The notes under the pieces: model-generated
The model's input: the letters and a program-made list of their open reading frames with translations, nothing else
What the model was told of the DNA's origin: nothing
The model's database searches: none
Program-made: the position numbers and the translations under genes
Assembly (NCBI GenBank): GCA_037893245.1
Contig: JBAIAA010000104.1
Coordinates: 721,001-785,000 of the forward strand
Reading direction: 5' to 3'
DNA from: Crossaster papposus
Lineage: Eukaryota; Echinodermata; Asteroidea; Velatida; Solasteridae
Length of the DNA: 64,000 nt
Part shown: piece by piece, positions 16,703-47,989 of the stretch
Numbering within the stretch: the stretch's first letter is position 1
Layout: each line of letters opens with the position of its first letter

Positions 16703-16707
16703 TAGTT

Positions 16708-21165: not shown

Positions 21166-21808
21166 CCTTCCGCCCAGACCTGCATGCCTAGACCGAAACA
21201 AAGTTACGTTAATGTTTTAAGAGGTCAAATTGACTAGGGGACTAATTATTTGCAAAGACGACAGTGTCTAACAACAAAATTTTTGCCCATCCAAGGCCAA
21301 CTTTTGTTTGTGTGTATTTTAAACCACTTTAGAGCAAGACTGTTGTTGGATAAGGGAGTGACAGCCTAAGATGCACCCGCCCAAGATGACGACAGGACTG
21401 GAAGACTGGACGATTGGTGGGTGTTTTATGACACGTTCTGTTATATTAAAGCACTGTAGTGCATATTTTGTGCATAAATAGATACATATAATGCGCCTTC
21501 ATATTTGGCGTGATGAAATTTGTTTGAAATTACCTCTTAAATACCCGACTCCAGTAATAATAAAAACAAGTATAACAATGTATACAGCTTTGCCCATCAA
21601 AAGTTGATATTTGATTATTGTTATTGTTTTAATTTAAAACAGCTTGAGATGGAGAATTAATGAATGCGACAACAAGACCGCACGCCCAGACCAGCACGCC
21701 TAGACCGAAACAAAGTTAAGTATATGTTTTAAGAGGTCAAATTGACTAGGGGACTAATTATTTAGATTTTGTTTGGATACTGTGCAAGTGTAAACTGTTT
21801 TTGTCATT

Positions 21809-21887
21809 GCAGGCGCCAACAAAATGAACCGGCACTGAGCCGCCTTGCCCGCCGCCGTCAACGCTTGTTCATTTTAGTGGCGTCTGC
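21809..21887 (+). repeat. Hairpin element in satellite copy 1
   Basis: The outer stem gcaggcgcca and the inner stem aaaatgaac/gttcatttt enclose a GC-rich centre with gcccgccgccgtc. Here the right outer arm has one change (cgtctgc). Confidence 0.85.
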
Positions 21888-22681
21888 TCGGAGAAAGACA
21901 AGAAGACACGAAAAGTAATGAAAACAAAACCCACTAAAATACTGACACACAGTTATGAGTAATTTTCTAAGAGATGCCAAACTGCTTATGAGACTAATTT
22001 TGTCGACTTTGTTTGGATACCCGACTGTGCAAGTGTAGACTTGAAATTAAGTCGTTGGACACTGTCGGTTTTGTATGTGTAGTCGCCATCCAAAAAAACC
22101 AACGCTGAGCCACTATGCATGGACAAAGACGACAGTGTCTCACAACAAAAAATTTGCCCATCCAAGGCCAACTTTTGTTTGTGTGTATTTTAAACCACTT
22201 TAGAGGAAGACTGTTGTTGGATAAGGGAGTGACAGTCCAAGATGCACCCGCCCCAGATGACGACAGGACTGGAAGACTGGACGATTGGTGGGTGTTTTAT
22301 GACACGTTCTGTTATATTAAAGCACTGTAGTGCATATTTTGTGCATAAATAGATACATATAATGCGCCTTCATATTTGGCGTGATGAAATTTGTTTGAAA
22401 TTACACCTTAAATACCCGACTCCAGTAATAATAAAAACAAGTATAACAATGTATACAGATTTGCCCATCCCAAGTTGATATTTGATTATTGTTAAAGTTT
22501 TAATTTTAAACAGCTTGAGATGGAGAATTAAAGAATGCGACAACAAGACCGCACGCCCAGACCAGCACGCCTAGACCGAAACAAAGTTAAGTATAGGTTT
22601 TAAGAGAGGTTAAATTGACTAGGGGACTAATTATTTAGATTTTGTTTGGATACTGTGCAAGTGTAAACTGTTTTTGTCATT

Positions 22682-22760
22682 GCAGGCGCCAACAAAATGA
22701 ACCGGCGCTGAGCCGCCTTGCCCGCCGCCGTCAACGCTTGTTCATTTTAGTGGCGCCTGC
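22682..22760 (+). repeat. Hairpin element in satellite copy 2
   Basis: The outer arms gcaggcgcca and tggcgcctgc are perfectly complementary. The inner arms are aaaatgaac and gttcatttt. Confidence 0.88.
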
Positions 22761-23554
22761 TCGGTGAAAGACAAGAAGACACGAAAAGGAATGAAAACAA
22801 AACCCACTCAAATACTGACGCACAGTTACGAGTAATTTTCTAAGAGATGCCAAACTGCTTATGAGACTAATTTTGTCGACTTTGTTTGGATACCCGACTG
22901 TGCAAGTGTAGACTTGAAGTGAAGTCGTTGGACACTGTCGTTTTTGTATGTGTAGTCGCCATCCAAAAAAACCAACGCTGAGCCACTATGCATGGACAAA
23001 GACGACAGTGTCTCACAAGAAACATTTTGCCCATCCAAGGCCAACTTTTGTTTGTGTGTATTTTAAACCACTTTAGAGGAAGACTGTTGTTGGATAAGGG
23101 ACTGACAGCCCAAGATGCACCCGCCCCAGATGACGACAGGACTGGAAGACTGGACGATTGGTGGGTGTTTTATGACACGTTCTGTTGTATTAAAGCACTG
23201 TAGTGCATATTTTGTGCATAAATAGATACATATAATGCGCCTTCATATTTGGCGTGATGAAATTTGTTTGAAATTACACCTTAAATACCCGACTCCAGTA
23301 ATAATAAAAACAAGTATAACAATGTATACAGCTTTGCCCATCCCAAGTTGATATTTGATTATTGTTATTGTTTTAATTTTAAACAGCTTGAGATGGAGAA
23401 TTAAAGAATGCGACAACAAGACCGCACGCCCAGACCAGCACGCCTAGACCGAAACAAAGTTAAGTATAGGTTTTAAGAGAGGTTAAATTGACTAGGGGAC
23501 TAATTATTTAGATTTTGTTTGGATACTGTGCAAGTGTAAACTGTTTTTGTCATT

Positions 23555-23633
23555 GCAGGCGCCAACAAAATGAACCGGCGCTGAGCCGCCTTGCCCGCCG
23601 CCGTCAACGCTTGTTCATTTTAGTGGCGTCTGC
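23555..23633 (+). repeat. Hairpin element in satellite copy 3
   Basis: Same structure; the right outer arm reads tggcgtctgc. Confidence 0.85.
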
Positions 23634-24412
23634 TCGAAGAAAGACAAGAAGACACGAAAAAGAATGAAAACAAAACCCACTCAAATACTGACACAGTTAC
23701 GAGTAATTTTCGATGCCAAACTGCTTATGAGACTAATTTTGTCGACTTTGTTTGGATACCCGACTGTGCAAGTGTAGACTTGAAATTAAGTCGTTGGACA
23801 CTGTCGTGTGTAGTCGCCATCCCAAAAAACCAACGCTGAGCCACTATGCATGGACAAAGACGACAGTGTCTCACAACAAAAAATTTGCCCATCCAAGGCC
23901 AACTTTTGTTTGTGTGTATTTTAAACCACTTTAGAGGAAGACTGTTGTTGGATAAGGGAGTGACAGCCCAAGATGCACCCTCCCAAGATGTTGACAGGAC
24001 TGGAAGACTGGACGATTGGTGGGTGTTTTATGACACGTTCTGTTATATTAAAGCACTGTAGTGCATATTTTGTGCATAAATAGATACATATAAAGCGCCT
24101 TCATATTTGGCGTGATGAAATTTGTTTGAAATCACACCTTAAATACCCGACTCCAGTAATAATAAAAACAAGTATAACAATGTATACAGCTTTGCCCATC
24201 CAAAGTTGATATTTGATTATTGTTATTGTTTTAATTTGAAACAGCTTGAGATGGAGAATCAATGAATGCGACAACAAGACCGCACGCCCAGACCAGCACG
24301 CCTAGACCGAAACAAAGTTAAGTATATGTTTTAAGAGAGGTTAAATTGACTAGGGGACTAATTATTTAGATTTTGTTTGGATACTGTGCAAGTGTAAAGT
24401 GTTTTTGTCATT

Positions 24413-24491
24413 GCAGGCGCCAACAAAATGAACCGGCGCTGAGCCGCCTTGCCCGCCGCCGTCAACGCTTGTTCATTTTAGTGGCGTCTGC
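24413..24491 (+). repeat. Hairpin element in satellite copy 4
   Basis: Same structure; the right outer arm reads tggcgtctgc. Confidence 0.85.
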
Positions 24492-25280
24492 TCGAAGAAA
24501 GACAAGAAGACACGAAAAGGAATGAAAACAAAACCCACTCAAATACTGACACACAGTTATGAGTAATTTTCGATGCCAAACTGCTTATGAGACTAATTTT
24601 GTCGACTTTGTTTGGATACCCGACTGTGCAAGTGTAGACTTGAAATTAAGTCGTTGGACACTGTCGTTTTTGTATGCGTAGTCGCCATCCAAAAAAAACA
24701 ACGCTGAGCCACTATGCATGGACAAAGATGACAGTGTCTAACAACAAACTTTTTGCCCATCCAAGGCCAACTTTTGTTTGTGTGTATTTTAAACCACTTT
24801 AGAGGAAGACTGTTGTTGGATAAGGGAGTGACAGCCCAAGATGCACCCTCCCAAGATGTTGACAGGACTGGAAGACTGGACGATTGGTGGGTGTTTTATG
24901 ACACGTTCTGTTATATTAAAGCACTGTAGTGCATATTTTGTGCATAAATAGATACATATAAAGCGCCTTCATATTTGGCGTGATGAAATTTGTTTGAAAT
25001 CACACCTTAAATACCCGACTTCAGTAATAATAAAAACAAGTATAACAATGTATACAGCTTTGCCCATCCAAAGTTGATATTTGATTATTGTTATTGTTTT
25101 AATTTGAAACAGCTTGAGATGGAGAATCAATGAATGCGACAACAAGACCGCACGCCCAGACCAGCACGCCTAGACCGAAACAAAGTTAAGTATATGTTTT
25201 AAGAGAGGTTAAATTGACTAGGGGACTAATTATTTAGATTTTGTTTGGATACTGTGCAAGTGTAAAGTGTTTTTGTCATT

Positions 25281-25359
25281 GCAGGCGCCAACAAAATGAA
25301 CCGGCGCTGAGCCGCCTTGCCCGCCGCCGTCAACGCTTGTTCATTTTAGTGGCGTCTGC
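25281..25359 (+). repeat. Hairpin element in satellite copy 5
   Basis: Same structure; the right outer arm reads tggcgtctgc. Confidence 0.85.
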
Positions 25360-26152
25360 TCGAAGAAAGACAAGAAGACACGAAAAGGAATGAAAACAAA
25401 ACCCACTCAAATACTGACACACAGTTATGAGTAATTTTCGATGCCAAACTGCTTATGAGACTAATTTTGTCGACTTTGTTTGGATACCCGACTGTGCAAG
25501 TGTAGACTTGAAATTAAGTCGTTGGACACTGTCGTTTTTGTATGCGTAGTCGCCATCAAAAAAAAACAACGCTGAGCCACTATGCATGGACAAAGATGAC
25601 AGTGTCTAACAACAAACTTTTTGCCCATCCAAGGCCAACTTTTGTTTGTGTGTATTTTAAACCACTTTATTAGAGGAAGACTGTTGTTGGATAAGGGAGT
25701 GACAGCCCAAGAATGCACCCGCCCCAGATGACGACAGGACTGGAAGACTGGACGATTGGTGGGTGTTTTATGACACGTTCTGTTATATTAAAGCACTGTA
25801 GTGCATATTTTGTGCATAAATAGATACATATAATGCGCCTTCATATTTGGCGTGATGAAATTTGTTTGAAATTACACCTTAAATACCCGACTCCAGTAAT
25901 AATAAAAACAAGTATAACAATGTATACAGCTTTGCCCATCCCAAGTTGATATTTGATTATTGTTATTGTTTAAATTTTAAACAGCTTGAGATGGAGAATT
26001 AAAGAATGCGACAACAAGACCGCACGCCCAGACCAGCATGCCTAGACTGAAACAAAGTTAAGTATATGTTTTAAGAGAGGTTAAATTGACTAGGGGACTA
26101 ATTATTTAGATTTTGTTTGGATACTGTGCAAGTGTAATCTGTTTTTGTCATT

Positions 26153-26231
26153 GCAGGCGCCAACAAAATGAACCGGCGCTGAGCCGCCTTGCCCGCCGCC
26201 GTCAACGCTTGTTTATTTTAGTGGCGCCTGC
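26153..26231 (+). repeat. Hairpin element in satellite copy 6
   Basis: The outer arm is perfect (tggcgcctgc). The inner right arm has tttattttagt in place of ttcattttagt. Confidence 0.85.
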
Positions 26232-27029
26232 TCGGTGAAAAACAAGAAGACACGAAAAGGAATGAAAACAAAACCCACTCAAATACTGACGCACAGTTAC
26301 GAGTAATTTTCTAAGAGATGCCAAACTGCTTATGAGACTAATTTTGTCGACTTTGTTTGGATACCCGACTGTGCAAGTGTAGACTTGAAATTAAGTCGTT
26401 GGACACTGTCGTTTTTGTATGCGTAGTCGCCATCCAAAAAAAACAACGCTGAGCCACTATGCATGGACAAAGACGACAGTGTCTAACAACAAACTTTTTG
26501 CCCATCCAAGGCCAACTTTTGTTTGTGTGTATTTTAAACCACTTTATTAGAGGAAGACTGTTGTTGGATAAGGGAGTGACAGCCCAAGAATGCACCCGCC
26601 CCAGATGACGACAGGACTGGAAGACTGGACGATTGGTGGGTGTTTTATGACACGTTCTGTTGTATTAAAGCACTGTAGTGCATATTTTGTGCATAAATAG
26701 ATACATATAATGCGCCTTCATATTTGGCGTGACGAAATTTGTTTGAAATTACACCTTAAATACCCGACTCCAGTAATAATAAAAACAAGTATAACAATGT
26801 ATACAGCTTTGCCCATCCAAAGTTGATATTTGATTATTGTTATTGTTTTAATTTGAAACAGCTTGAGATGGAGAATCAATGAATGCGACAACAAGACCGC
26901 ACGCCCAGACCAGCACGCCTAGACCGAAACAAAGTTAAGTATATGTTTTAAGAGAGGTTAAATTGACTAGGGGACTAATTATTTAGATTTTGTTTGGATA
27001 CTGTGCAAGTGTAAACTGTTTTTGTCATT

Positions 27030-27108
27030 GCAGGCGCCAACAAAATGAACCGGCGCTGAGCCGCCTTGCCCGCCGCCGTCAACGCTTGTTCATTTTAGTG
27101 GCGTCTGC
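27030..27108 (+). repeat. Hairpin element in satellite copy 7
   Basis: Same structure; the right outer arm reads tggcgtctgc. Confidence 0.85.
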
Positions 27109-27903
27109 TCGAAGAAAGACAAGAAGACACGAAAAGGAATGAAAACAAAACCCACTCAAATACTGACACACACAGTTATGAGTAATTTTCGATGCCAAAC
27201 TGCTTATGAGACTAATTTTGTCGACTTTGTTTGGATACCCGACTGTGCAAGTGTAGACTTGAAATTAAGTCGTTGGACACTGTCGTTTTTGTATGCGTAG
27301 TCGCCATCCAAAAAAACCAACGCTGAGCCACTATGCATGGACAAAGATGACAGTGTCTAACAACAAACTTTTTGCCCATCCAAGGCCAACTTTTGTTTGT
27401 GTGTATTTTAAACCACTTTATTAGAGGAAGACTGTTGTTGGATAAGGGAGTGACAGCCCAAGAATGCACCCGCCCCAGATGACGACAGGACTGGAAGACT
27501 GGACGATTGGTGGGTGTTTTATGACACGTTCTGTTATATTAAAGCACTGTAGTGCATATTTTGTGCATAAATAGATACATATAATGCGCCTTCATATTTG
27601 GCGTGATGAAATTTGTTTGAAATTACACCTTAAATACCCGACTCCAGTAATAATAAAAACAAGTATAACAATGTATACAGCTTTGCCCATCCCAAGTTGA
27701 TATTTGATTATTGTTATTGTTTAAATTTTAAACAGCTTGAGATGGAGAATTAAAGAATGCGACAACAAGACCGCACGCCCAGACCAGCACGCCTAGACTG
27801 AAACAAAGTTAAGTATATGTTTTAAGAGAGGTTAAATTGACTAGGGGACTAATTATTTAGATTTTGTTTGGATACTGTGCAAGTGTAATCTGTTTTTGTC
27901 ATT

Positions 27904-27982
27904 GCAGGCGCCAACAAAATGAACCGGCGCTGAGCCGCCTTGCCCGCCGCCGTCAACGCTTGTTCATTTTAGTGGCGCCTGC
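27904..27982 (+). repeat. Hairpin element in satellite copy 8
   Basis: The outer arms are perfect, with tggcgcctgc on the right. Confidence 0.88.
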
Positions 27983-28769
27983 TCGGTGAAAAACAAGAAG
28001 ACACGAAAAGGAATGAAAACAAAACCCACTCAAATACTGACGCACAGTTACGAGTAATTTTCTAAGAGATGCCAAACTGCTTATGAGACTAATTTTGTCG
28101 ACTTTGTTTGGATACCCGACTGTGCAAGTGTAGACTTGAAATGAAGTCGTTGGACACTGTCGTGTGTAGTCGCCATCCCAAAAAACCAACGCTGAGCCAC
28201 TATTGCATGGACAAAGACGACAGTGTCTCACAACAAAAATTTTGCCCATCCAAGGCCAACTTTTGTTTGTGTGTATTTTAAACCACTTTAGAGGAAGACT
28301 GTTGTTGGATAAGGGAGTGACAGCCCAAGATGCACCCGCCCAAGATGACGACAGGACTGGAAGACTGGACGATTGGTGGGTGTTTTATGACACATTCTGT
28401 TATATTAAAGCACTGTAGTGCATATTTTGTGCATAAATAGATACATATAATGCGCCTTCATATTTGGCGTGATGAAATTTGTTTGAAATCACACCTTAAA
28501 TACCCGACTCCAGTAATAATAAAAACAAGTATAACAATGTATACAGCTTTGCCCATCCAAAGTTGATATTTGATTATTGTTATTGTTTTAATTTTGAACA
28601 GCTTGAGATGGAGAATCAATGAATGCGACAACAAGACCGCACGCCCAGACCAGCACGCCTAGACCGAAACAAAGTTAAGTATATGTTTTAAGAGAGGTTA
28701 AATTGACTAGGGGACTAATTATTTAGATTTTGTTTGGATACTGTGCAAGTGTAAACTGTTTTTGTCATT

Positions 28770-28848
28770 GCAGGCGCCAACAAAATGAACCGGCGCTGAG
28801 CCGCCTTGCCCGCCGCCGTCAACGCTTGTTCATTTTAGTGGCGCCTGC
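28770..28848 (+). repeat. Hairpin element in satellite copy 9
   Basis: The outer arms are perfect, with tggcgcctgc on the right. Confidence 0.88.
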
Positions 28849-29916
28849 TCGGTGAAAGACAAGAAGACACGAAAAGGAATGAAAACAAAACCCACTCAAA
28901 TACTGACGCACAGTTATGAGTAATTTTCGATGCCAAACTTCTTATGAGACTAATTTTGTCGACTTTGTTTGGATACCCGACTGCAAGTGTAGACTTGAAA
29001 TTAAGTCGTTGGACACTGTCGTTTTTGTATGCGTAGTCGCCATCCAAAAAAAACAACGCTGAGCCACTATGCATGGACAAAGATGACAGTGTCTAACAAC
29101 AAACTTTTTGCCCATCCAAGGCCAACTTTTGTTTGTGTGTATTTTAAACCACTTTAGAGGAAGACTGTTGTTGGATAAGGGAGTGACAGCCCAAGAATGC
29201 ACCCGCCCCAGATGACGACAGGACTGGAAGACTGGACGATTGGTGGGTGTTTTATGAAACGTTCTGTTATATTAAAGCACTGTAGTGCATATTCTGTGCA
29301 TAAATAGATACATATAATGCGCCTTCATATTTGGCGTGATGAAATTTGTTGGAAATCACACCTTAAATACCCGACTCCAGTAATAATAAAAACAAGTATA
29401 ACAATGTATACAGCTTTGCCCATCCAAAGTTGATATTTGATTTTTGTTATTGTTTCAATTTTAAACAGCTTGAGATGGAGAATCAATGAATGCGACTGGA
29501 AGCTATGAAGGACTGGAAGATTGGTGAGTGTTTTATGACATGTTCTATTATATTAAACCACTATAGTATATATTTGGAGTTTATTTTTATTGTCACAGTT
29601 ATAGATAGTTATAATGCACCTTTATTTCGCTAGCTAAAGTTCGTTTAGAAATACACATTAAAAACGTGACTCGTATATTTCAGAATTCTATTACAGAAAA
29701 TATGTCACCTCCGATACTTACATATGCATTTCTTTGCGCATGCGCAATGAATTTGCTGAAACGAAAACAAAGGCTATGACGTCACCCACACACTGCACCT
29801 CCCAGAAGCCCTATATGAATCGTCCTTATTTCAGCGTGCGTTAAGTGTACACGTGTTGTTAGGTTTACTCCTAGCGATACACTCTACAAGCGTAAAGATT
29901 GTATTTTCGACACGAC

Positions 29917-30054
29917 ATGGCTGAACCAAAATCTAAGAAAAAGTCAGCGAATCGCAGCAATATTTGCCGTTCCTGTGGTAGTTCACCTTTGGACTTTGAT
30001 ATACATTCTTCCTGCTTCCGTTGTCGTCTATGCTCACAGAATAACCCTTGCTGA
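29917..30054 (+). pseudogene. Gag-like N-terminus of the DIRS-like element
   Basis: The frame opens at ATG 29917 with a basic MAEPKSKKKSANRS leader followed by CRSCGSSPLDFDIH and CFRCRLC. This Cys/His pattern resembles the N-terminus of DIRS ORF1 proteins. It stops at TGA after 45 residues, much shorter than a working gag. The following frame at 30048-30611 has no ATG and no clear motif, and probably contains frameshifted gag remnants. Confidence 0.6.
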
Positions 30055-30508
30055 ATCTGTTCATAGTTTCATCCTACAGTCGCCCTATTCCCGCCTCGTC
30101 AGAGAGATGGAACGACCTTTCTTTTTGGGCTGAGCCGGAAAATTACGTACATCGACCCGGCCCGGGCGCTCTGGCTTGGGCGTACTTCCCTAACGATCCC
30201 CGTCAGTACGGGCCGCCGATGCATCTCTCTTGCCTGCCTTTGAGCTACTTTCCTACGTACTACACTCCGGAGATGTCATATCATGGCGAACGGGGCCCTG
30301 GTACTGACCATTTACCTCGCCTGAGGGATCGCTATATGCTGACGATGATTCCAGCCAGTGCGATAGTAGCCACTATTTCAGAGGCCACGCTACACATTCT
30401 TTGTCTCGTGATAGTGCCTACCGCTCTCAACACTACGTCGGAGATCATTTTCCGGAGGGAATTTTTCGTCTTCGTTCTGGGGATTTTTCTCGTTCCCGCT
30501 CCCGTTCT

Positions 30509-30575
30509 CGATCGACTATCAGGTCGTCTCATCGACTATCAGGTCGTACACATCGACTATCAGGTCGTACACACA
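30509..30575. repeat. Three copies of a ~21-base unit inside the DIRS-like element
   Basis: The word atcgactatcaggtcgt occurs three times in tandem, separated by ctc or acac. It is a local expansion in the gag region. Confidence 0.85.
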
Positions 30576-30928
30576 CGGCCATCCTTTGTCTTTTTTACCG
30601 ACTTCCAATGACTCGGATCTAGACAGTCGGGAGCCCAAAGTGATCATCCCAGAAGTGGGTAAGATTTTTACAGTTTCCCCCTCCTTCTTCTATAGAAGCC
30701 TCCCGCTCCTCCTTCCGAAAAGAGACAGCTAGACCCACTCCTCCTCTGAATTTTGTGCTTCCCATTGACATTTGTTTGGCGGACATCATGGATAAAGCCT
30801 TTTCTCTCATTCAGAAGAAAAAAGCTCCCAAAGCCTCCTCCAGAGAACATTGACTTTTTAAAACCAAAGATGATAACTCCAATCAGTTTTGTACTATCCC
30901 AACAATTCCTTCAGCAGTCAAAGACAAA

Positions 30929-31351
30929 TTGTGTTCTTCCAACCCTTCCAAGAGAAGCTTTTTCCCAGACAAGATGGAAACCCTGGCCACTGTCCTGCAA
31001 TCCCTTCCCCAGGGCTGGTGGGCTGCAACCCTGGATCTGAAGGATGTTTATCTTGATATCTCCATCCACAGAGACCATCAGAGGTTCTTGCAATTCATGT
31101 ATCGGAACATCACTTATCAGTTTACCCAAAAATTGGACTCTTTCATCAACCAGGAATGCATGCTAACCTGGAGTCTACTCACTTGGTGCAATCTCTCTAC
31201 AAGCGAGCCACCTCTCCGGGAAAGAGAACATCATAGTGGATGCCCTTTCACGAGGGAGAAACAGATCTTCAACGTCCTAGACACCCCACACACACGCACT
31301 ACCTCCTACCCAGAGTCTTATCAAAGATCGACCAAGAGAGGTGCTAGATAA
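30929..31351 (+). pseudogene. Reverse-transcriptase and RNase H remnants of the DIRS-like element
   Basis: The frame carries FPDKMETLATVLQSLP, GWWAATLDLKDVYLDI and HRDHQRFLQFMYRNITYQF. These are RT blocks typical of DIRS and related elements; LDLKD is the first catalytic aspartate block. It then jumps into unrelated residues, and the YxDD block is missing, so the polymerase is dead. In a neighbouring frame at about 31208-31275, SGKENIIVDALSRGR matches the end of the RNase H domain (the IADxLSR motif of the family), showing a deletion plus frameshift. The frame has no authentic start codon. Confidence 0.85.
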
Positions 31352-31439
31352 TCTTAATAGCCCCCCCCCCCCCTGGCCAAGATAACCATGGTTCCCTTAA
31401 CTTCTGGACTTCCCATTATTCTACCAAAGAGACCAGACC

Positions 31440-32282
31440 TTCTCACACAACCCGTGTCCAAGATGTTGCTGCACCCAGATCCGGACAGTCCTTATCTTTG
31501 TGCTTGGATGCTATCAAGTCTTCCATCCGAACGGCTGGCCTATCTTTAGACGCTGCTTCCCTTGCAGCAAAATGTAGACGACCGTCCACTAGAAGAACAC
31601 ATGTGCCAAGGAAGGTTTTGATCCCAATTCTGCATCTGTAACTGTGATGGGGGATTTTCTACTTCATCTCTTTAATTCTGGCCTCCAGATTAGAACCATT
31701 TGAGGCTACAGATCAGCCATCGCAGTAGTACATCTTACCAATCTTACCAATAATACTGCTATATCTCAACTGATAAAAGGTATGTTTTTAGAGAGACCAC
31801 TCCTTCTTGGGACCTCGGTTGACGAAGCCTCCCTTTGAACACAACCTCACGGTCAAGACAGTCTTCCTTTTAGGAACAAGAACAGGGAGGTGTTTGTCTT
31901 GTCCCACGTATCAACTTCCTAACCAAGAACCAATCACCAAGTTTTCCCCTCAAGACATATTCGTCGCGAGCTTGACTTCATTTTCAAGTGTCATTTTGAA
32001 CACTACACAACTCTTCATCACAACAGTCTGTCCGTTCAACCCCGCCGAAGCCATACTACCAGATTTACCAGGCGAACTGTTGACGGGAGCAATTAATAGT
32101 ATCTACTCTGACACGGAACACACCCCTCTCAACCAGTTGCATGACTACCTCAAGGGCTCATTTCCAAGGTGTTCCTATCACAGATATTATGGAGGCAGCT
32201 TGTTGGAGGGGCACATGGGCAGACAAGTTTTGCAAGCAGCAGCACGTTCTTCAGCCCAGAAACACCGCAGGACTGTCAACTC
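31440..32282 (+). pseudogene. Tyrosine recombinase remnants of the DIRS-like element
   Basis: Fragments in shifting frames resemble DIRS recombinases. These are LLHPDPDSPYLCAW near 31470; FLLHLFNSGLQIRTI, stop, GYRSAIAVVH at 31656-31740; LIKGMFLERP near 31770; TVKTVFLLGTRTGR in the frame 31807-32292; and ITDIMEAACWRGTW near 32185. The last is the C-terminal region expected near the catalytic tyrosine, but the order is broken by at least two stops and frameshifts. It would join element cDNA circles to the chromosome in a live copy; this one cannot. Confidence 0.75.
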
Positions 32283-32355
32283 ATCTTCATAAGAGCTTTT
32301 GAGTACAATTGCTTGCGCATGCGCATAGAAATGCATATGTAGGTATCGGAGGTGA

Positions 32356-33110
32356 GTATTTTCTTAGATAGATTAGGAAATCCCTACAGATTTAGGGAGA
32401 ATACGATTGCGGTACATAGTGAGATATTTGAGGGTATATTCATTGCATCCAACGAATACCACCATGTACTTTTATTAACAGTTTAAGTCAGCCATTTTTT
32501 GTTGTTCTTTTTTTGAAGTGGGAACCGCTTGAATCTAGCATCTACTACAACCAACCGACACTCGCTTAATCTAAAAGTGTGATTTCGTGCGATTTGTGGC
32601 GCCGAGTTGGACTTCAAATACCAAGCCAGAATTATGAAGGGTTTCTTCAGACAAGACGGTTTCTTCTTGGCTCAATCGAGCTACATGCATGGCATAGCTG
32701 CCAATGAGCCTTAGTCCCTACTAACACGACGGTCAAATTAATTGCATCCACTTTATCTTCACAGTCTAATACCCCTGAACCTGAAGGTGCGTGACATCCT
32801 GCTGTGGCGTCTCTAGTCTCTCCTGACAGACCTGCTAAACCGGAAGGATTTCCAACTGCGCTAACAAGACCATCTGAAATTCGGGCATTGGACATTCATT
32901 GGAGATCAGCAAGTGTCCTCATTAGCCTGCGACTGTCTGACATTCCTCAACTGCCTTGTCTTGATCGAGTTGTGTGTATGCAGGCATTTTGTAGCACCGG
33001 CCGGTAGGCGGATCACTCTGTCTCCGATGTAGCAGGAACTAACGGTCGCTACCGCATGAATGGAGATATTTACATGCATACCAGCCAATGTTTTTATTGT
33101 ACGCCTTCAC
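32356..33110. other. Unassigned sequence after the DIRS-like element
   Basis: No gene or repeat is recognised. Short frames on both strands overlap each other and show no family motif. Confidence 0.4.
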
Positions 33111-33435
33111 CCAGTGTTGCCTACCTTGGCATTGTCAAGACGAAGTGGTGACTGTCAGACAGGTTCACCGAGCATCTCTGTAGCGTTACACTTGTTACTC
33201 GTGGCTTAACTGTGGTGCAGTACTTTTCTTCATCGGGCCAAACCATTATAGACACGAGCGTCCGTTTCTTGGTTGCCACGGGTACCGACATGAAATGCAA
33301 ATGCGCTGAGCAACATATCATCTTCCATGCCCTGACAAAGAACAGTAATTAAAAACAATTGCACCTCGCGAAATTGTGAGCCCTTTTTAAATTTGTTTTT
33401 AATCAAGTCGTTTTTGTCCGTAAGGGCGTTACCTA

Positions 33436-33485
33436 AATGAACCAGCACTGAGCCAGCATGCCCGCCGCCGTCAGGGCTGGTTCAT
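33436..33485 (+). repeat. Hairpin element, dispersed copy
   Basis: The arms are atgaaccagcact and agggctggttcat around gagccagcatgcccgccgcc. It is followed by gtcagtggcgcc, as in the satellite copies. Confidence 0.85.
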
Positions 33486-33654
33486 GTCAGTGGCGCCTAC
33501 TGGGACAAAGACACGATTACATCGAAATGAATTACAATGAGCAAATAATGACCGACAGTGTTACAATCAATTTTCTAACAGATGTGCAATTTGTTATGGA
33601 CAAAGTTTTTCGATTTTGTTTAGATACTGTGCAAGTGTAGAAGTGTAGACCGAA

Positions 33655-33705
33655 ATTAACCAGCACTGAGCCAGCATGCCCGCCGCCGTCGGCGCTGGTT
33701 GATTT
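33655..33705 (+). repeat. Hairpin element, dispersed copy
   Basis: The arms are aattaaccagc and gctggttgatt around the same GC-rich loop. It is preceded by gatactgtgcaagtgtag and followed by gacaaagacacgaagacac, as in the 870-bp satellite. Confidence 0.85.
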
Positions 33706-34110
33706 TGGACAAAGACACGAAGACACCTAAAGGAATTTTAAAAATATAAAAAATTTGACTGTGACACAGACTTTCGAGCAATTTTAAAAAAGAAGTCAAA
33801 TTGACTATGGTTTTAGATTTTGTTGCGATACTGTGCAAGATAGTACAGTGCTTACCTTTTGGTTGGGGTGCAACATTTTGGGACATACTGTCAGCGTACA
33901 GAGATAGAAGATTATACGCTACTCAGTGCATTTGCATTTTATGTCGGTCCCCGTGGCAACCAAGGCGCAGACACTCTTGTCTTTGATGGTACGGTCTGAT
34001 GTGGAGAAGCTCGGTGCTACAGCTAAGTTGTGGGTACCAAGTAGTTGTGCTACGAAGATGCTCGTCGAACATGCCAGGCAGTGGCCGCTTTTTCTTTACG
34101 ATGTGAAGAA

Positions 34111-35429
34111 GGCGACAATGGGTGCGAGTGATGCAATAAACAGCATTTGGCGGTGTGCATGCGAATAATCCTTTGATGGGGTTTACGGCTCGCGGAACCT
34201 GTTATTATTGGAAGACAGTGGGGTACAAGTATCGAAAAGTGTTGCAAGTGTCTGTTTGCATGGCTGATCTTGCCTCGGTAGGGGGAATTGTTTGTACAGC
34301 CGTGACTAGTGGGGTGCACTGGTTGAATCTTAGTGGGTGAAAAATGTCTGAATCGCGGATGAGCTTGTCGGCAAAGTTGTTTGAGATCCTGATGGTAAGC
34401 AGGTTCATGTCAAGAGGGTCTCTAAATGTCGTAGCAGGAGGTCTCGCGCACCTCTTTGGTTCAGGAGTTTAGATGTGAAGACAAAGTAGACGCGATGTTT
34501 TGACCATCGTTGAGTAGTGGCTAGTGCTTGTTGGCGGCCCGTGGATGTAGCTCGGTTGAGAGCAGAAGAAACTGGGTTGTCTGGTTAAGAAACCTTTTAC
34601 AATTCCGGATTTGGGATCGCATTCTTAGATGAGTGTCAGTTGGCCTGTGGTAGATGTAAGTAATGAAGCGGTTCTGAGATGGCGGCTATACCCCGTAAGA
34701 TGACGGCCAGGAATGGATGCCATGAAGACTGAATGATTGGTAGGTGTATTTAAAAATAATGGTAATTCAAGCAATTACCAATGGTGTATCCTACTATTAA
34801 ACCACTATATTAATGTTTGTGCATGCCTAAAAGTTTTGCAAGTGATTTGCATGTTTTCATATAACGCATAAGGTGACCTTTAGTTGTAGCAAGTTTTCTT
34901 CTGTGGGCTTCGAACAGAGAAGACCAACATAAAATGTAAACCATGTAAACCAACTCCCAGTGAGTAACGTTGTATTTTATTTGATATTTGTACTGATAAT
35001 TGTGACCTTTTTGCGACCGTGTGTGTATTTTTATTATTTGTATTGTCAGATTTGTAGATGTAATGTGCAGCTATCCAGGTGACATTTGACCTTCATGTTA
35101 TTGTACTACGGTCGTAAATAATACTGTGCCTTTATTGCAATGAGTGTTTTCTTGTAAAGTTATATTCAGGAAATAGGTGTGGTCCGCTACATTAACAAAT
35201 ACAAACTGAAAAGCCTGGCTCGTACTTTTAAATGCTCACAAAGCGTTTTGTAGCCGAATTTGGCGATTTTAGAAAACAGTACCCCTACATCTCGATCAAT
35301 AGTAACCTTGAAAATTTCATGTGTCAAAATAGATGGGATGTGATGTGATGAGATGCAACCGTCTTGTAACAAGCTGGATGAGAGAGACGGCCTGGAAGCC
35401 CCGAATACTGGACGATAGGTAGGTTTTTA
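34111..35429. other. Non-coding, with satellite fragments
   Basis: No gene is recognised. Fragments near 34717-34810 (gactgaatgattggtaggtg, attaaaccactata) and 35375-35445 (tactggacgataggtaggt) are diverged pieces of the 870-bp satellite. Confidence 0.5.
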
Positions 35430-40100: not shown

Positions 40101-43100
40101 TCGCAAGTCCCTCGCATTACAAGTCTGTCGCAAGTCCCTCACATTACAAGTCTGTCGCAAGTCCCTCACATTACAAGTCTGTCGCAAGTCCCTCACATTA
40201 CAAGTCTGTCGCAAGTTCCTCTCATTACAAGTCTGTCGCAAGTCTCTAGCATTACAAGTTTGTCGCAAGTCTCTAGCATTACAAGTTTGTCGCAAGTCTT
40301 TCGCATTGAAAGTCTGTCGCAAGTCTCTCGCATTACTAGTCTGTCGCAAGTCTCTCGCATTGCAAGTCTGTCGCAAGTCTCTCGCATTGCAAGTCTGTCG
40401 CAAGTTCCTCTCATTACAAGTCTGTCGCAAGTTCCTCTCATTACAAGTCTGTCGCAAGTTCCTCTCATTACAAGTCTGTCGCAAGTTCCTCTCATTACAA
40501 GTCTGTCGCAAGTTCCTCTCATTACAAGTCTGTCGCAAGTTCCTCTCATTACAAGTCTGTCGCAAGTTCCTCTCATTACAAGTCTGTCGCAAGTTCCTCT
40601 CATTACAAGTCTGTCGCAAGTTCCTCTCATTACAAGTCTGTCGCAAGTTCCTCTCATTACAAGTCTGTCGCAAGTTCCTCTCATTACAAGTCTGTCGCAA
40701 GTTCCTCTCATTACAAGTCTGTCGCAAGTTCCTCTCATTACAAGTCTGTCGCAAGTTCCTCTCATTACAAGTCTGTCGCAAGTCTCTCGCATTACTAGTG
40801 TGTCGCAAGTCCCTCTCATTACAAGTCTGTCGCAAGTCCCTCTCATTACAAGTCTGTCGCAAGTCCCTCTCATTACAAGTCTGTCGCAAGTCCCTCGCAT
40901 TACTAGTCTGTCGCAAGTTCCTCTCATTACAAGTCTGTCGCAAATTCCTCTCATTACAAGTCTGTCGCAAGTTCCTCTCATTACAAGTCTGTCGCAAGTT
41001 CCTCTCATTACAAGTCTGTCGCAAGTTCCTCTCATTACAAGTCTGTCGCAAGTTCCTCTCATTACAAGTCTGTCGCAAGTTCCTCTCATTACAAGTCTGT
41101 CGCAAGTTCCTCTCATTACAAGTCTGTCGCAAGTTCCTCTCATTACAAGTCTGTCGCAAGTTCCTCTCATTACAAGTCTGTCGCAAGTTCCTCTCATTAC
41201 AAGTCTGTCTCAAGTTCCTCTCATTACAAGTCTGTCTCAAGTTCCTCTCATTACAAGTCTGTCGCAAGTTCCTCTCATTACAAGTCTGTCGCCAGTTCCT
41301 CTCATTACAAGTCTGTGGCAAGTTCCTCTCATTACCAGTCTGTCGCAAGTTCCTCTCATTACCAGTCTGTCGCAAGTTCCTCTCATTACAAGTCTGTCGC
41401 AAGTTCCTCTCATTACAAGTCTGTCGCAAGTTCCTCTCATTACAAGTCTGTCTCAAGTTTCTCGCATTACAAGTCTGTCGCAAGTTTCTCGCATTACAAG
41501 TCTGTCGCAAGTTTCTCGCATTACAAGTCTGTCGCAAGTTCCTCTCATTACAAGTCTGTCGCAAGTTTCTCGCATTACAAGTCTGTCGCAAGTTTCTCGT
41601 ATTACAAGTCTGTCGCAAGTTCCTCTCATTACAAGTCTGTCGCAAGTTCCTCTCATTACAAGTCTGTCGCAAGTTCCTCTCATTACAAGTCTGTCGCAAG
41701 TTCCTCTCATTACAAGTCTGTCGCAAGTTCCTCTCATTACAAGTCTGTCGCAAGTTCCTCTCATTACAAGTCTGTCGCAAGTTCCTCTCATTACAAGTCT
41801 GTCGCAAGTTCCTCTCATTACAAGTCTGTCGCAAGTTCCTCTCATTACAAGTCTGTCGCAAGTTCCTCTCATTACAAGTCTGTCGCAAGTTCCTCTCATT
41901 ACAAGTCTGTCGCAAGTCCCTCGCATTACTAGTCTGTCGCAAGTCTCTCGCATTACAAGTCTGTCGCAAGTTCCTCTCATTACAAGTCTGTCGCAAGTTC
42001 CTCTCATTACAAGTCTGTCGCAAGTCCCTCGCATTACAAGTCTGTCGCAAGTTCCTCTCATTACAAGTCTGTCGCAAGTTCCTCTCATTACAAGTCTGTC
42101 GCAAGTTCCTCTCATTACAAGTCTGTCGCAAGTCCCTCGCATTACTAGTCTGTCGCAAGTCTCTCGCATTACAAGTCTGTCGCAAGTTCCTCTCATTACA
42201 AGTCTGTCGCAAGTTCCTCTCATTACAAGTCTGTCGCAAGTTCCTCTCATTACAAGTCTGTCAAAAGTTCCTCTCATTACAAGTCTGTCGCAAGTTCCTC
42301 TCATTACAAGTCTGTCGCAAGTTCCTCTCATTACAAGTCTGTCGCAAGTTCCTCTCATTACAAGTCTGTCGCAAGTTCCTCTCATTACAAGTCTGTGGCA
42401 AGTTCCTCTCATTACCAGTCTGTCGCAAGTTCCTCTCATTACAAGTCTGTCGCAAGTTCCTCTCATTACAAGTCTGTCGCAAGTCCCTCGCATTACTAGT
42501 CTGTCGCAAGTCCCTCACATTACAAGTCTGTCGCAAGTCCCTCACATTACAAGTCTGTCGCAAGTTCCTCTCATTACAAGTCTGTCGCAAGTCTCTAGCA
42601 TTACAAGTCTGTCGCAAGTCTCTAGCATTACAAGTCTGTCTCAAGTTCCTCTCATTACAAGTCTGTCGCAAGTTCCTCTCATTACAAGTCTGTCGCAAGT
42701 TCCTCTCATTACAAGTCTGTGGCAAGTTCCTCTCATTACCAGTCTGTCGCAAGTTCCTCTCATTACCAGTCTGTGGCAAGTTCCTCTCATTACCAGTCTG
42801 TGGCAAGTTCCTCTCATTACAAGTCTGTCGCAAGTTCCTCTCATTACAAGTCTGTCGCAAGTTTCTCGCATTACAAGTCTGTCGCAAGTTTCTCGCATTA
42901 CAAGTCTGTCGCAAGTTCCTCTCATTACAAGTCTGTCGCAAGTTCCTCTCATTACAAGTCTGTCGCAAGTTTCTCGCATTACAAGTCTGTCGCAAGTTTT
43001 TCGCATTACAAGTCTGTCGCAAGTTCCTCTCTATACAAGTCTGTCGCAAGTTCCTCTCATTACAAGTCTGTCGCAAGTTCCTCTCATTACAAGTCTGTCG

Positions 43101-43745
43101 CAAGTTCCTCTCATTACAAGTCTGTCGCAAGTTCCTCTCATTACAAGTCTGTCGCAAGTTCCTCTCATTACAAGTCTGTCGCAAGTTCCTCTCATTACAA
43201 GTCTGTCGCAAGTTTCTCGCATTACAAGTCTGTCGCAAGTCCCTCTCATTACAAGTCTGTCGCAAGTCCCTCTCATTACAAGTCTGTCGCAAGTCCCTCA
43301 CATTGTAAGTCTGTCGCAAGTCCTTCCCGTTGCAATTCCCTCAAAGTCTCTAGCATTACAAGTTTGTCGCAAGTCTCTAGCATTACAAGTTTGTAACAAT
43401 TCTCTAGCATTACAAGTTTGTCGCAAGTCTCTAGCATTACAAGTTTGTAACAAGTCTCTAGCATTACAAGTTTGTCGCAATTCTCTAGCATTACAAGTTT
43501 GTCGCAATTCTCTAGCATTACAAGTTTGTCGCAAGTCTCTAGCATTACAAGTTTGTCGCAATTCTCTAGCATTACAAGTTTGTCGCAATTCTCTAGCATT
43601 ACAAGTTTGTCGCAATTCTCTAGCATTACAAGTTTGTCGCAAGTCTCTAGCATTACAAGTTTGTAACAATTCTCTAGCATTACAAGTTTGTCGCAGTTCT
43701 TTAGCATTGTAAGTCTGTCGCAAGTCCCTCGCATTGTAAGTCTGT
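37131..43745. repeat. 27-bp minisatellite, about 244 copies
   Basis: The unit is cattacaagtctgtcgc followed by aag(t/c)tcct(c)t-type sequence, 27 bases long. Because 27 is divisible by three and the unit lacks stops in most frames, both strands show huge frames (up to 2195 codons, repeating SLSQVPLIT, or RQTCNERNL on the minus strand). Several frames are open at once and no frame is favoured, so these are artefacts. The array has its own higher-order duplication: a marker unit with cttattaca at 38142 recurs 1215 bases later, exactly 45 units. The right edge (43330-43745) is a diverged sub-array with ctctagcattacaagtttg. Confidence 0.95.
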
Positions 43746-45560
43746 CTCTGCCTCTCTAAAACCAAGTGTGCCTCCCATGTTGTTCAGAAGTCATATGTTT
43801 ATTTCTGAATCTACAACATTATGATACTTGACATAGACTAAAGCCGATGAATAATGAGTTCATAATTAGCCAGTTAAAGATGACTGCGAATTTTTCTGCC
43901 TTTTTAAAACAGTGTACCTCGCACATTATCCAAAACTCTTTTGTTGTGTTCTTAATCTTCAACATCATGATACTTGGTACACTTAATTTTGGTATAGACT
44001 AAAGCCGAATAATAATTAGTGTATAATTAAGCCCCTAAATAGAACCCTTTTCTACTGAAGAATTGTAACCCGTTATTTCAGGTCCAAAAACCTCAATCTT
44101 TGAAACCAAGTGTAAGATTATACTCCTGGGCACACTTAATACTTGGAGATGTTTCAGCCGAACTACTTGTTGCCTAATTAATTACTGAAATAAAACCCTT
44201 TCTCACTGCAGCAGCATAATGCATTATTTCGGCTGCAAATTTCTCTTCCTCTTTAAAACGGTGTACCCCGCATGTTATTCCAAAATCTACAACATCATGA
44301 TACCTGGCACACTTACTTTGGGTATAGACTAAAGCCGAATAATAATTAGTGCATAATTAGCCAGTTTAAGAAATTTCTTTTCACTGCAGTATTGTAATAT
44401 ATATTTTAATATGTGATAAAAAAACTCATCTTCTTGATTCCTAATCCTGAAGACCATGCCACTAGGCCCCCTTAATTATGGTATAAGCTGTAGCCGAATA
44501 CTTATTAGTGCACAATTAATCCGTTAAATATAGAACCATTTGTTACTAATGCATTGTAATGCGTTTTTCGGCTGCAAATATTTATGAATCTTCAAAACCA
44601 AGTGTACTTTACATATTATTCAGAACTCTAAATTTTATTTCATAATCTACATGATTATACTACTGGGCACACTTAATACTTGTGGAAGCTGAAGCCAAAC
44701 ACAAATTAGTGCCTAATAAATTCCTTAAATGGAACCCTTTCTTACGGCAGCATCATATTGCGTTCATTCGGCTGCGAATTTCTCTGTGTACCTCGCATGT
44801 TATCTAAACATTTCTCATTTTAGTTCCTAATGTACAATACCATGATAAAAAGCCGAATAATAATTGGGGCACAATTAGCCAGTTAAGAAATCTCTTTTCA
44901 CTGCAGTATTGTGATGTGTTCTTTTCAGATGCGATTATCAGTGACATGTGATAACAAAAATCATCTTCCTATTTCATAATCTGCAAGGCCATGCTACTAG
45001 GCACACTTAATTTTGATGAATAATTAGTTTGTAATTAATCCCTGTAATAGAACCTTTTCTTACTGAAGCATTTCAATGACAGGTAACCTTATTAATCGTT
45101 AAAATACCCATTACAATTAATATATATATATTGAAATAAAGACATAAGAAACAAATACCCAAAACGTCAATAAAATGTAAATTTTAAAAAACGCCAGTGA
45201 ATAAAAGATATATATTTTCACACTTTTCCACTTGAATTAATGAGATCAATATAATATGGAATTAGGCTATTTCTGAACCGACGTGTTTTAGCTAGAAGAG
45301 TTATGAAGGTTCCTTCAATTTAAGGACAACGTGGAGTGCAGAATCATATGAAAGATAGTTCCTGCCCAAAATTATTCTACAAGCTCCTTTCTGTATACTT
45401 TCAATACCGTACTCATTGCCCCTTTAATAACAAAAGGTATGACTTGTTGATAACATGCGAGGTACATATTACGGTACCAAGAAAATTTAATTTTGGTATA
45501 GGCTTTAGCATTGTAATGCGTTGTATGCGAATATCATATTACCCAATACTCTGTCTAGTG
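43746..45560. repeat. Degenerate AT-rich satellite, right block
   Basis: Same family as 35430-37130, resuming with ctgcctctctaaaaccaag and gtgcctcccatgttg. Monomers continue to about 45070 and less clearly to 45560, where one word (acatgcgaggtac, about 45456) is inverted. Confidence 0.85.
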
Positions 45561-45876
45561 TAACCATTTATTTGTTGGGTCTTGTGTACCCATTTTATTT
45601 GGGTGTGGTGTACCCACTAATAATTGTTCATTGAAGTAGGAGTACAACCAGCACGCTAAATATTACCCTTGCCCTGCCAACGTCGATTTTTTTTTCTTTC
45701 TTGTTTTAACATGCAGAGACAGTGACTGGAAGATTCATCCGCCAAAGATGACGATTTGAAATGGAAGTAATGAAGATTGGACTATTGGTTATAATACGTT
45801 CTATGCTAATAAATAAAGTTCATATAGTTGTGTTGTGTTGTGGTGTTGTTGTCTTGTTGTCGTATTTGTCCGTAAA
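45561..45876. other. Spacer with a satellite fragment
   Basis: Contains a duplicated word (tgtgtacccattttatttg, tgtggtgtacccact) near 45580-45620. A piece at 45720-45815 is related to the 870-bp satellite (gactggaagatt, gaagattggactattggt, acgttct). Confidence 0.55.
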
Positions 45877-45933
45877 GTAAATGAACCAAGGTTGAGGGCG
45901 GCGGGCATGTTGGCTCAGCGCTGGTTCATTTAC
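45877..45933 (-). repeat. Hairpin element, dispersed copy in opposite orientation
   Basis: The arms gtaaatgaacca and tggttcatttac are perfectly complementary. The loop reads gagggcggcgggcatgttgg, the reverse complement of the loop in the 33.4 kb copies. Confidence 0.88.
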
Positions 45934-46195
45934 CATGTCCCTTTGTTACTATGTCCCTTTGTAACTATGTCCCTTTGTTACTATGTCCCTTTGTTACCCT
46001 CTCCCATTTTTACCCTCTCCCATTGTTACCCTCTCCCATTGTTACCCTCTCCCATTGTTACCCTCTCCCTTTGTTACCCATCTCCCTTTGTTACCCATCT
46101 CCCTTTGTTACCCATCTCCCTTTGTTACCCAACTCCCTTTGTTACCCAATTCCCTTTGTTCCCAACTCCCTTTGTTCCCATCTCCCTTTGTTCCC
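45934..46195. repeat. Evolving 15-19 bp minisatellite
   Basis: Runs of ccctttgttactatgt give way to accctctcccattgtt, then acccatctccctttgtt and ttcccaactccctttg. Each sub-block has its own unit length. Frames through it are repeat translations. Confidence 0.9.
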
Positions 46196-46787
46196 ATATT
46201 GCACTGTCGTTATATTGCACTGTCGTTATATTGCACTGTCGTTATATTGCACTGTCGTTATATTGCACTGTCGTTATATTGCACTGTCGTTATATTGCAC
46301 TGTCGTTATATTGCACTGTCGTTATATTGCACTGTCGTTATATTGCACTGTCGTTATATTGCACTGTCGTTATATTGCACTGTCGTTATATTGCACTGTC
46401 GTTATATTGCACTGTCGTTATATTGCACTGTCGTTATATTGCACTGTCGTTATATTGCACTGTCGTTATATTGCACTGTCGTTATATTGCACTGTCGTTA
46501 TATTGCACTGTCGTTATATTGCACTGTCGTTATATTGCACTGTCGTTATATTGCACTGTCGTTATATTGCACTGTCGTTATATTGCACTGTCGTTATATT
46601 GCACTGTCGTTATATTGCACTGTCGTTATATTGCACTGTCGTTATATTGCACTGTCGTTATATTGCACTGTCGTTATATTGCACTGTCGTTATATTGCAC
46701 TGTCGTTATATTGCACTGTCGTTATATTGCACTGTCGTTATATTGCACTGTCGTTATATTGCACTGTCGTTATATTGCACTGTCGTT
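46196..46787. repeat. 16-bp array, 37 uniform copies
   Basis: The unit atattgcactgtcgtt is repeated 37 times in perfect register (46772 minus 46196 is 36 times 16). I see no variant copy. The three long plus-strand frames (LHCRYIALSLYCTVVI) arise because 48 bases give a 16-residue period without stops. Confidence 0.97.
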
Positions 46788-46938
46788 ATATTATTTTAAA
46801 CTTTAAATTACTTTTTTTTTTTAGCCTTCCACCTCTAAAACTGTACCTTCTTCACAATCTCTCATCCTGTAATTAGCGCTGTTGGGTGTTGAATGAAATC
46901 AATAAAACTCTTTTTGTATCTTTCAATGTACATTGCAG

Positions 46939-47034
46939 TGTGATCCTACTCGCTAAGACCATAACTGTCCTGAATCTCGGCTTTAACAAACTGACGACAT
47001 TGCCGACGGAACTCCAAATGATGGTGAGCCTTAG
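46939..47034 (+). pseudogene. Leucine-rich-repeat gene fragment, exon 1
   Basis: After an acceptor tgtacattgcag the frame reads VILLAKTITVLNLGFNKLTT then LPTELQMMVSL. This fits the LRR consensus LxxLxLxxNxLxxLPxxL of intracellular LRR proteins (SHOC2/LRRC40-like style). The donor is gtaaga, and the split codon AG|G continues in phase into the next exon at 47213. LRR repeats form ligand or partner binding arcs; which LRR protein this was cannot be decided. The joined repeat looks one strand short, so an exon may be missing between the two. GC content is well above the flanking DNA. Both sides of the gene fragment carry the same AT-rich word family as the hairpin array. Confidence 0.75.
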
Positions 47035-47212
47035 GTAAGACATTGCGACATCCTGATCTACTAAATTTGGGGCCCAGCGGCTCAAGATCAGCCGCAATTT
47101 GGTTTGTAGCTTGTTAGGGTTTGAAACCGCATACCATCCCACATGAGTCAATCGCCGTAACCCTTGGACCGTATCACCCTAATTAATTAATTAATTTTTA
47201 TTTTGGTATCAG

Positions 47213-47376
47213 GAACAACGCGATCAGCACAACTCCCCTCTGAGTGGAGCACCCTGTCGAAGCTGAGGGAGATCTGTGTGTCCTGCAACCGACTCAAAGA
47301 GATCCTGGCCGTGGTCTACCAGTGGGCTGAGCTAGAGAACCTCCTCCTGGGCGGCAACCAGTTGGCCGTGATCGAC
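47213..47376 (+). pseudogene. Leucine-rich-repeat gene fragment, exon 2 (frameshifted, truncated)
   Basis: The acceptor ttttggtatcag starts an exon that first reads NNAIST and then hits TGA. Shifting by one base restores PSEWSTLSKLREICVSC then NRLKEILAVVYQWAELE and NLLLGGNQLAVID, two more LRR motifs. One extra A in agcacaactccc explains the shift. The exon ends abruptly at atcgac, where the hairpin-carrying repeat begins, so it is cut by repeat DNA and has no donor. Judged a broken fragment. A long frame can be drawn across the junction, but its tail (FKLFLTLIYF) is repeat sequence. Confidence 0.8.
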
Positions 47377-47438
47377 TTTAAATTATTTTTAACTTTAATT
47401 TACTTTTAATTTAGCCTTTTTTTTAGACTAATTTTTTT

Positions 47439-47485
47439 AAACCAGCACTGAGGGCGGCGGGCATGTTGGCTTAGCGCTGGTTCAT
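47439..47485 (-). repeat. Hairpin element in ~115-bp repeat, copy 1
   Basis: The left arm aaccagcactga pairs with ttagcgctggtt; the loop is gggcggcgggcatgttggc. One arm mismatch compared with the other four copies. Confidence 0.87.
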
Positions 47486-47555
47486 TAGACTTTAAAATAT
47501 TGTAAACTTTAATTTACTTTTAATTTAGCCTTTTTTTTTTAGACTATTTTTTTTA

Positions 47556-47600
47556 AACCAGCGCTGAGGGCGGCGGGCATGTTGGCTTAGCGCTGGTTCA
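47556..47600 (-). repeat. Hairpin element in ~115-bp repeat, copy 2
   Basis: The arms aaccagcgctga and ttagcgctggtt pair apart from one position at the loop edge. Confidence 0.88.
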
Positions 47601-47656
47601 TTAGACTTTAAAATATTGTAAACTTTAATGTACTTTTAATGTAACCTTTTTTTGTA

Positions 47657-47701
47657 AACCAGCGCTGAGGGCGGCGGGCATGTTGGCTTAGCGCTGGTTC
47701 A
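47657..47701 (-). repeat. Hairpin element in ~115-bp repeat, copy 3
   Basis: Same arms and loop as copy 2; the preceding T-run is shorter. Confidence 0.88.
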
Positions 47702-47771
47702 TTAGACTTTAAAATATTGTAAACTTTAATTTACTTTTAATGTAACCTTTTTTTTTAGACTATTTTTTTAT

Positions 47772-47816
47772 AACCAGCGCTGAGGGCGGCGGGCATGTTG
47801 GCTTAGCGCTGGTTCA
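47772..47816 (-). repeat. Hairpin element in ~115-bp repeat, copy 4
   Basis: Same arms and loop; preceded by ttttttataacc. Confidence 0.88.
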
Positions 47817-47886
47817 TTAGACTTTAAAATATTGTAAACTTTAATGTACTTTTAATGTAACCTTTTTTTTTAGACTATTTTTTTAT

Positions 47887-47931
47887 AACCAGCGCTGAGG
47901 GCGGCGGGCATGTTGGCTTAGCGCTGGTTCA
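47887..47931 (-). repeat. Hairpin element in ~115-bp repeat, copy 5
   Basis: Same arms and loop; the last copy before the 40-bp array. Confidence 0.88.
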
Positions 47932-47989
47932 TTAGACTTTAAAATATTGTAAACTTTAATTTACTTTTAATGTATCCTTTTTTTTAGAC

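Follow-up and report, generated by a model that had tools for sequence, protein, structure and literature searches.

The end of contig JBAIAA010000104.1 of the sea star Crossaster papposus raises the question of why one GC-rich hairpin should recur in several different subtelomeric repeats. The stretch analysed (64,000 nucleotides, positions 721,001 to 785,000, hereafter the window) forms the terminal part of a 785-kb contig in a 1.02-Gb genome, and it carries TTAGGG repeats from 56.6 kb onward. A 49-base hairpin sequence was used as the query for copies in the window; only 17 were found, each matching at 41-46 of the 49 positions, against a best score of 28 across 20 shuffled windows. This agrees with the initial annotation, which had placed nine copies in an 870-bp satellite, two near 33 kb, one at 45.9 kb and five in a ~115-bp array. 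The satellite cores, one in each of units 1 to 9, lie on the plus strand at 21824-21872, 22697-22745, 23570-23618, 24428-24476, 25296-25344, 26168-26216, 27045-27093, 27919-27967 and 28785-28833, and the pair starting at 33437 and 33655 has the same orientation; the copy starting at 45881 and the five array copies are on the minus strand. We consider it very probable (about 0.92) that the hairpin forms the core of a miniature inverted-repeat transposable element (MITE) that is non-autonomous, almost completely palindromic, TA-duplicating and most likely Tc1/mariner-mobilised, and that satellite derived from this MITE has spread between chromosome ends.

The element itself was recognised away from the chromosome ends. 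A pattern made of the left stem and the loop, allowing up to 3 mismatches, has 434 + 417 matches in the genome, and 0 when the same pattern is read backwards. Positions were listed for 100 of these 851 core matches, all of them exact, the other 751 being counted without a listed position; among those listed, 97 lie at most 62 kb from a contig end (distances were tallied directly for 72 of the 100 and taken from contig sizes for 28) and 3 are interior. The three interior matches were fetched: L032 is a complete inverted repeat and the other two are partial copies. In this complete repeat (L032/L067, 617 bp for L032) the segments are 84-100% complementary and the hairpin stands at the centre, making it the middle stem-loop of a palindromic MITE and not a free-standing motif. 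A bare hairpin moving by itself was rejected, as all three interior matches among the 100 listed fall within recognisable MITE copies, two of them partial. The suggestion of the initial annotation that this might be a mobile hairpin element is therefore partly right. The hairpin is indeed part of a mobile element, namely the centre of a ~0.6-kb palindromic MITE, and was not seen moving alone.

Many dispersed copies exist, as is usual for MITEs: a query of arm plus core gave 1755 first-look candidates genome-wide, and scoring of 40 of them returned 65 matches. Thirty of these loci were extracted, and every one aligns to the MITE arm (one interior selection kept 9 of the 30, the rest falling below two arm thresholds). 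Both ends were sought in 7 of 12 loci, and a single end in the remaining 5. The seven copies in which both ends could be placed measure 484-633 bp, have arms near 290 bp and end in CAGGGTGT; the motif used for the end search itself contains TA, and TA flanks obtained in that search were not counted as evidence. A strict version of the end pattern occurs at only 6 places in the genome, of which the 5 fetched align to the MITE and the sixth is L049. Copy L046 folds end to end at -253 kcal/mol, with z -36 relative to 20 shuffled sequences. In two copies, the longest frames free of stops measure 86 and 102 amino acids, too short for a transposase; frames continuing into flanking DNA are excluded. 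The seven two-ended copies thus show what defines a MITE in structure, namely a short non-coding element with terminal inverted repeats.

The way in which the element inserts could be read from one copy. The flanks of L046 were joined and searched in the genome, which gave 11 matches, 5 of them crossing the junction; all five of these unoccupied relatives could be aligned and all fit a duplicated TA, the target-site duplication of Tc1/mariner MITEs, at this copy's site. The unoccupied sites read ...GCCTGCTATACAACTA..., and the occupied L046 site reads ...GCCTGCTATA followed by CAGGG, and CCCTG followed by TACACTACG. The letters alone would also permit a duplicated TAC, but TA is favoured because it leaves the ends CAGGG/CCCTG symmetric. 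Together with the CAGGGTGT ends and a length that leaves no space for a gene, the duplicated TA points to a palindromic MITE of the Tc1/mariner type. We infer the superfamily from the TA duplication, and it stays provisional because no transposase with CAGGGTGT ends was found. Most of the element is a long inverted repeat, as in foldback (FB) elements. These duplicate about 9 bp of their target, whereas the single site studied here has a duplication of two bases, or three at most. The hairpin could also be thought of as the 3' terminus of a Helitron, or as a self-cleaving ribozyme repeat of the retrozyme type, since GC-rich hairpins near tandem repeats are known from both. We regard this as having a negligible chance of being correct: Helitrons lack terminal inverted repeats and target duplications and carry their hairpin near the 3' end, whereas this element has both inverted repeats and a target duplication, and the hairpin of its complete copies is central and not terminal. 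In the window, moreover, none of the Rfam families scored up to its gathering threshold.

The remains of this element can be followed around the hairpins of the window. When a MITE reference derived from interior arms was compared with the window, it matched the hairpins of the satellite and those at 33, 45.9 and 47 kb, but had 0 hits in reversed form. MITE arm sequence is kept beside the satellite, 33-kb and 45.9-kb hairpins, and the 115-bp array contains the core alone. The satellite consists of nine tandem units of 858-877 bp, and arm matches are present in all nine. The pieces were displayed for units 1 and 9, each of which holds two, one with an intact and one with a damaged core, and both units align to positions 150-383 of the reference, as is expected of a transposon-derived satellite. 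In unit 1, the piece at 21732-21899 (plus strand, 75% to reference 175-367) comprises the inner left arm, the core and the start of the right arm, and a second plus-strand piece at 21947-22146 (reference 150-316 and 358-383) has a core damaged by deletion, after which the right arm resumes. Near 33 kb, where all pieces are on the plus strand, a MITE centre at 33407-33512 (86%) holds the inner left arm, the core at 33437-33485 and the inner right arm; the second piece (33554-33708) holds a left arm at 80% and the core at 33655-33703 at 90%, with ~50 bp of arm missing between them, and a third (33751-33839, 73%) is a left-arm piece without core. A large imperfect inverted duplication (32623-33384 and 33847-34611, 67% over 786 columns) encloses the two 33-kb hairpins. 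On the minus strand at 45858-45931, the 49-mer and the MITE reference locate the core (45881-45929) together with ~30 bp of right arm. A lone arm fragment without core is found at 14840-14903 (plus strand, 80% to reference 221-281).

These arms bear on the claim that the hairpins sit in unrelated surroundings. A colinear stretch of 252 columns (72%) links the satellite to the 33-kb pair, and next to the 45.9-kb hairpin lies DNA related to a different portion of the satellite unit (66% over 118 columns). Given this colinearity, and the MITE arms found at the satellite, 33-kb and 45.9-kb sites alike, the claim holds for the 115-bp array only.

The same arrangement is found at many other contig ends. 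The 97 end-proximal cores are spread over 35 contigs, of which 30 carry two cores 217-218 bp apart, and 24 of those 30 add an exact core in the opposite orientation 12-27 kb away toward the contig end. The 115-bp type of core occurs at 189 exact places in the genome, and the 100 matches listed for it form arrays on 14 contigs, distal to the outer opposite-orientation core. The part of the satellite unit that does not derive from the MITE gave 40 scored hits out of 650 candidates, which are 99-100% alike, as would be expected if chromosome ends exchange sequence. Contigs C72, C93, C104, C316, C376, C465 and C1031 have sizes that are exact multiples of 2,500 (for example 785,000; 220,000; 697,500), which suggests that the contig ends were cut by some assembly rule.

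Our reading of how the hairpins came to be distributed in this way is as follows. One or a few MITE copies would have landed in an ancestral subtelomere, and pieces of them would then have been duplicated with neighbouring DNA, giving the 870-bp satellite and the 33-kb pair. A bare core could have been caught in the AT-rich ~115-bp repeat, and ectopic exchange may subsequently have spread the whole block between chromosome ends. In such a history the hairpin would require no function of its own and would for the most part be commonplace transposon remains, and the instability of long palindromes may have made the arms vanish faster than the core.

Several observations weigh against this account. 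The 115-bp array holds 46-47 bp of core only, at 47437-47485, 47553-47601, 47654-47702, 47769-47817 and 47884-47932 (all on the minus strand, located by the 49-mer and by alignment to the MITE reference), so its derivation from the MITE rests on 91-94% identity over 47 bp. In addition, three Pfam profile searches of the genome revealed no autonomous partner with the MITE ends. The search with PF01359 gave 0 matches, and this profile was also without a match in any control; that with PF03184 gave 40 matches, of which the 4 fetched do not carry MITE ends; and all but 2 of the 150 scored matches to PF13358 (DDE_3) fell on contig C8, many with equal scores. The DDE_3 matches on C8 span 52 kb to 5.30 Mb, and this contig appears to come from a bacterial symbiont or contaminant with very many copies of a single IS630-type element. 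A further difficulty is that the subtelomeric cores are better kept than simple decay predicts: in 12 pooled subtelomeric rows the identity to the reference is 0.916 for the core and 0.806 for the arms (nominal Fisher p 5e-11, for copies that are not independent), and the five window rows alone give 220/242 against 647/786 (0.91 vs 0.82). Finally, a mixed alignment, in which 7 interior copies are combined with 10 subtelomeric ones, contains 38 double-changed stem cells against a mean of 25 in shuffles, and 0 of 500 shuffles reach 38.

The core/arm contrast raises the possibility that the core, although of transposon origin, was later co-opted and owes its retention in subtelomeres to some use of its sequence, such as protein binding or the initiation of recombination. 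The loop sequence TGCCCGCCGCC is indeed common to 15 of 15 rows of the subtelomeric alignment, and the contrast is much smaller in the 29 interior copies (core 0.907, arms 0.891), of which 19 have more than 2 gap positions in the core. In 43 interior arm halves, the core windows (0.82 and 0.68) do no better than the inner arm (0.85-0.93); this profile drops arm matches spanning fewer than 140 positions, and both interior comparisons leave out L048, whose centre is not recognisable. Against co-option, 5 of the 15 alignment rows and 6 of the 12 core/arm rows come from loci picked by exact core matches, and two of those 12 are units of one satellite, all of which exaggerates the contrast to some extent. 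The reference was moreover built from interior copies, which favours interior arms, and the local alignments are loose on gaps, both of which bear on the same comparison. In the satellite unit, the core of the second MITE piece is damaged, and the piece at 33.75 kb lacks a core altogether. Across the nine satellite units the hairpin has a diversity of 0.009 and the remaining sequence 0.024, yet 24% of windows of the same length are equally or less variable. Co-option of the core is for these reasons unlikely, and the more specific idea that the left stem and GC-rich loop form a subtelomeric sequence signal kept as the arms decay, such as a protein-binding site or a recombination hot spot driving exchange, is marginally less likely again. 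As for the hairpin being the conserved part, this is borne out by the subtelomeric cores relative to their arms, but neither within the satellite nor in the interior copies.

A different form of selection would act on the hairpin as a structure, be it a replication stall site, a cruciform or a structured transcript. When five copies were folded, four of them (one interior) were equalled by only 0, 0, 0 and 2 of 200 shuffles, but the 45.9-kb copy was matched or beaten by 23 of 200. The excess of double changes in the mixed alignment would also be in line with a selected structure, although relatedness through shared ancestry or self-repair of the palindrome may yield it as well. In the 15 subtelomeric stems (14 distinct), on the other hand, there is 1 double-changed cell compared with 0.6 in shuffles, and 6 of the 15 pairs depart only by breaking. 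Compensatory evolution of the subtelomeric stems was rejected on this count, as was a structured RNA among the Rfam families for the window. The stall site and structured transcript gain little from a stem that is uncompensated in subtelomeres and a hairpin that is not specially conserved within the satellite, and we consider selection on structure improbable, well below co-option of the sequence. The initial annotation had named uncompensated arm changes and copies sharing longer flanks as what would speak against its proposal, and this is largely what was found, except in the 115-bp array with its core only. The origin of the hairpin as the centre of a palindromic MITE remains the preferred reading.

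The window also contains other repeats and decayed elements. On the minus strand, 15437-17583 is a reverse transcriptase frame, presumably of the non-LTR (non-long terminal repeat) type, with a match to RVT_1 (E 2e-25) in 15437-16714; the piece at 16708-17583 on this strand matched no Pfam family. A decayed retroelement, which we take to be DIRS-like, occupies 29700-32352, with ~40-bp flanking inverted repeats seen by eye and a sub-threshold reverse transcriptase match at 30854-31351 (E 0.056). A 16-bp tandem repeat at 46196-46792 (37 copies, 100% matches) is more uniform than the neighbouring arrays, and fragments resembling leucine-rich-repeat exons, as translated by eye, lie at 46960-47380 and adjoin the 115-bp array.

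Satellites grown from MITEs or foldback elements are already known, among them Tetris (PMC4079207), Xstir and miDNA4 (both PMC12628747). Tetris, of Drosophila virilis, is a foldback transposon from which a satellite arose; like the Crossaster element it has long inverted repeats, and its parts are the building blocks of satellite arrays, but its ~220-bp tandem repeats lie inside the terminal repeats, whereas here the inner arm and core were amplified in subtelomeres (PMC4079207). The Xenopus MITE Xstir, compared by its published description, likewise has tandem arrays made from internal MITE sequence, although the Crossaster arrays differ in adjoining telomeres on many contig ends (PMC12628747). 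According to the same review, the strands of the zebrafish MITE Angel can self-pair, and miDNA4 of Xenopus is a Tc1/mariner MITE tied to satellite repeats; both resemble the Crossaster MITE in being short, dispersed and bounded by inverted repeats (again by description, not sequence), and differ from it in that the latter has no identified transposase partner (PMC12628747). The hairpin was not met in the part of the literature that was searched, by topic and not by hairpin sequence, and there a search on echinoderm subtelomeres found no papers.

The locus offers a case in which a palindromic MITE has supplied material to subtelomeric satellites at many contig ends, with unoccupied sites and full-length relatives in the same genome. 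It indicates that what looks like a motif conserved for its structure can turn out to be the centre left behind when the arms of a transposon have decayed, and the palindrome-bearing blocks shared between contig ends provide a handle on exchange between chromosome ends in Crossaster papposus.

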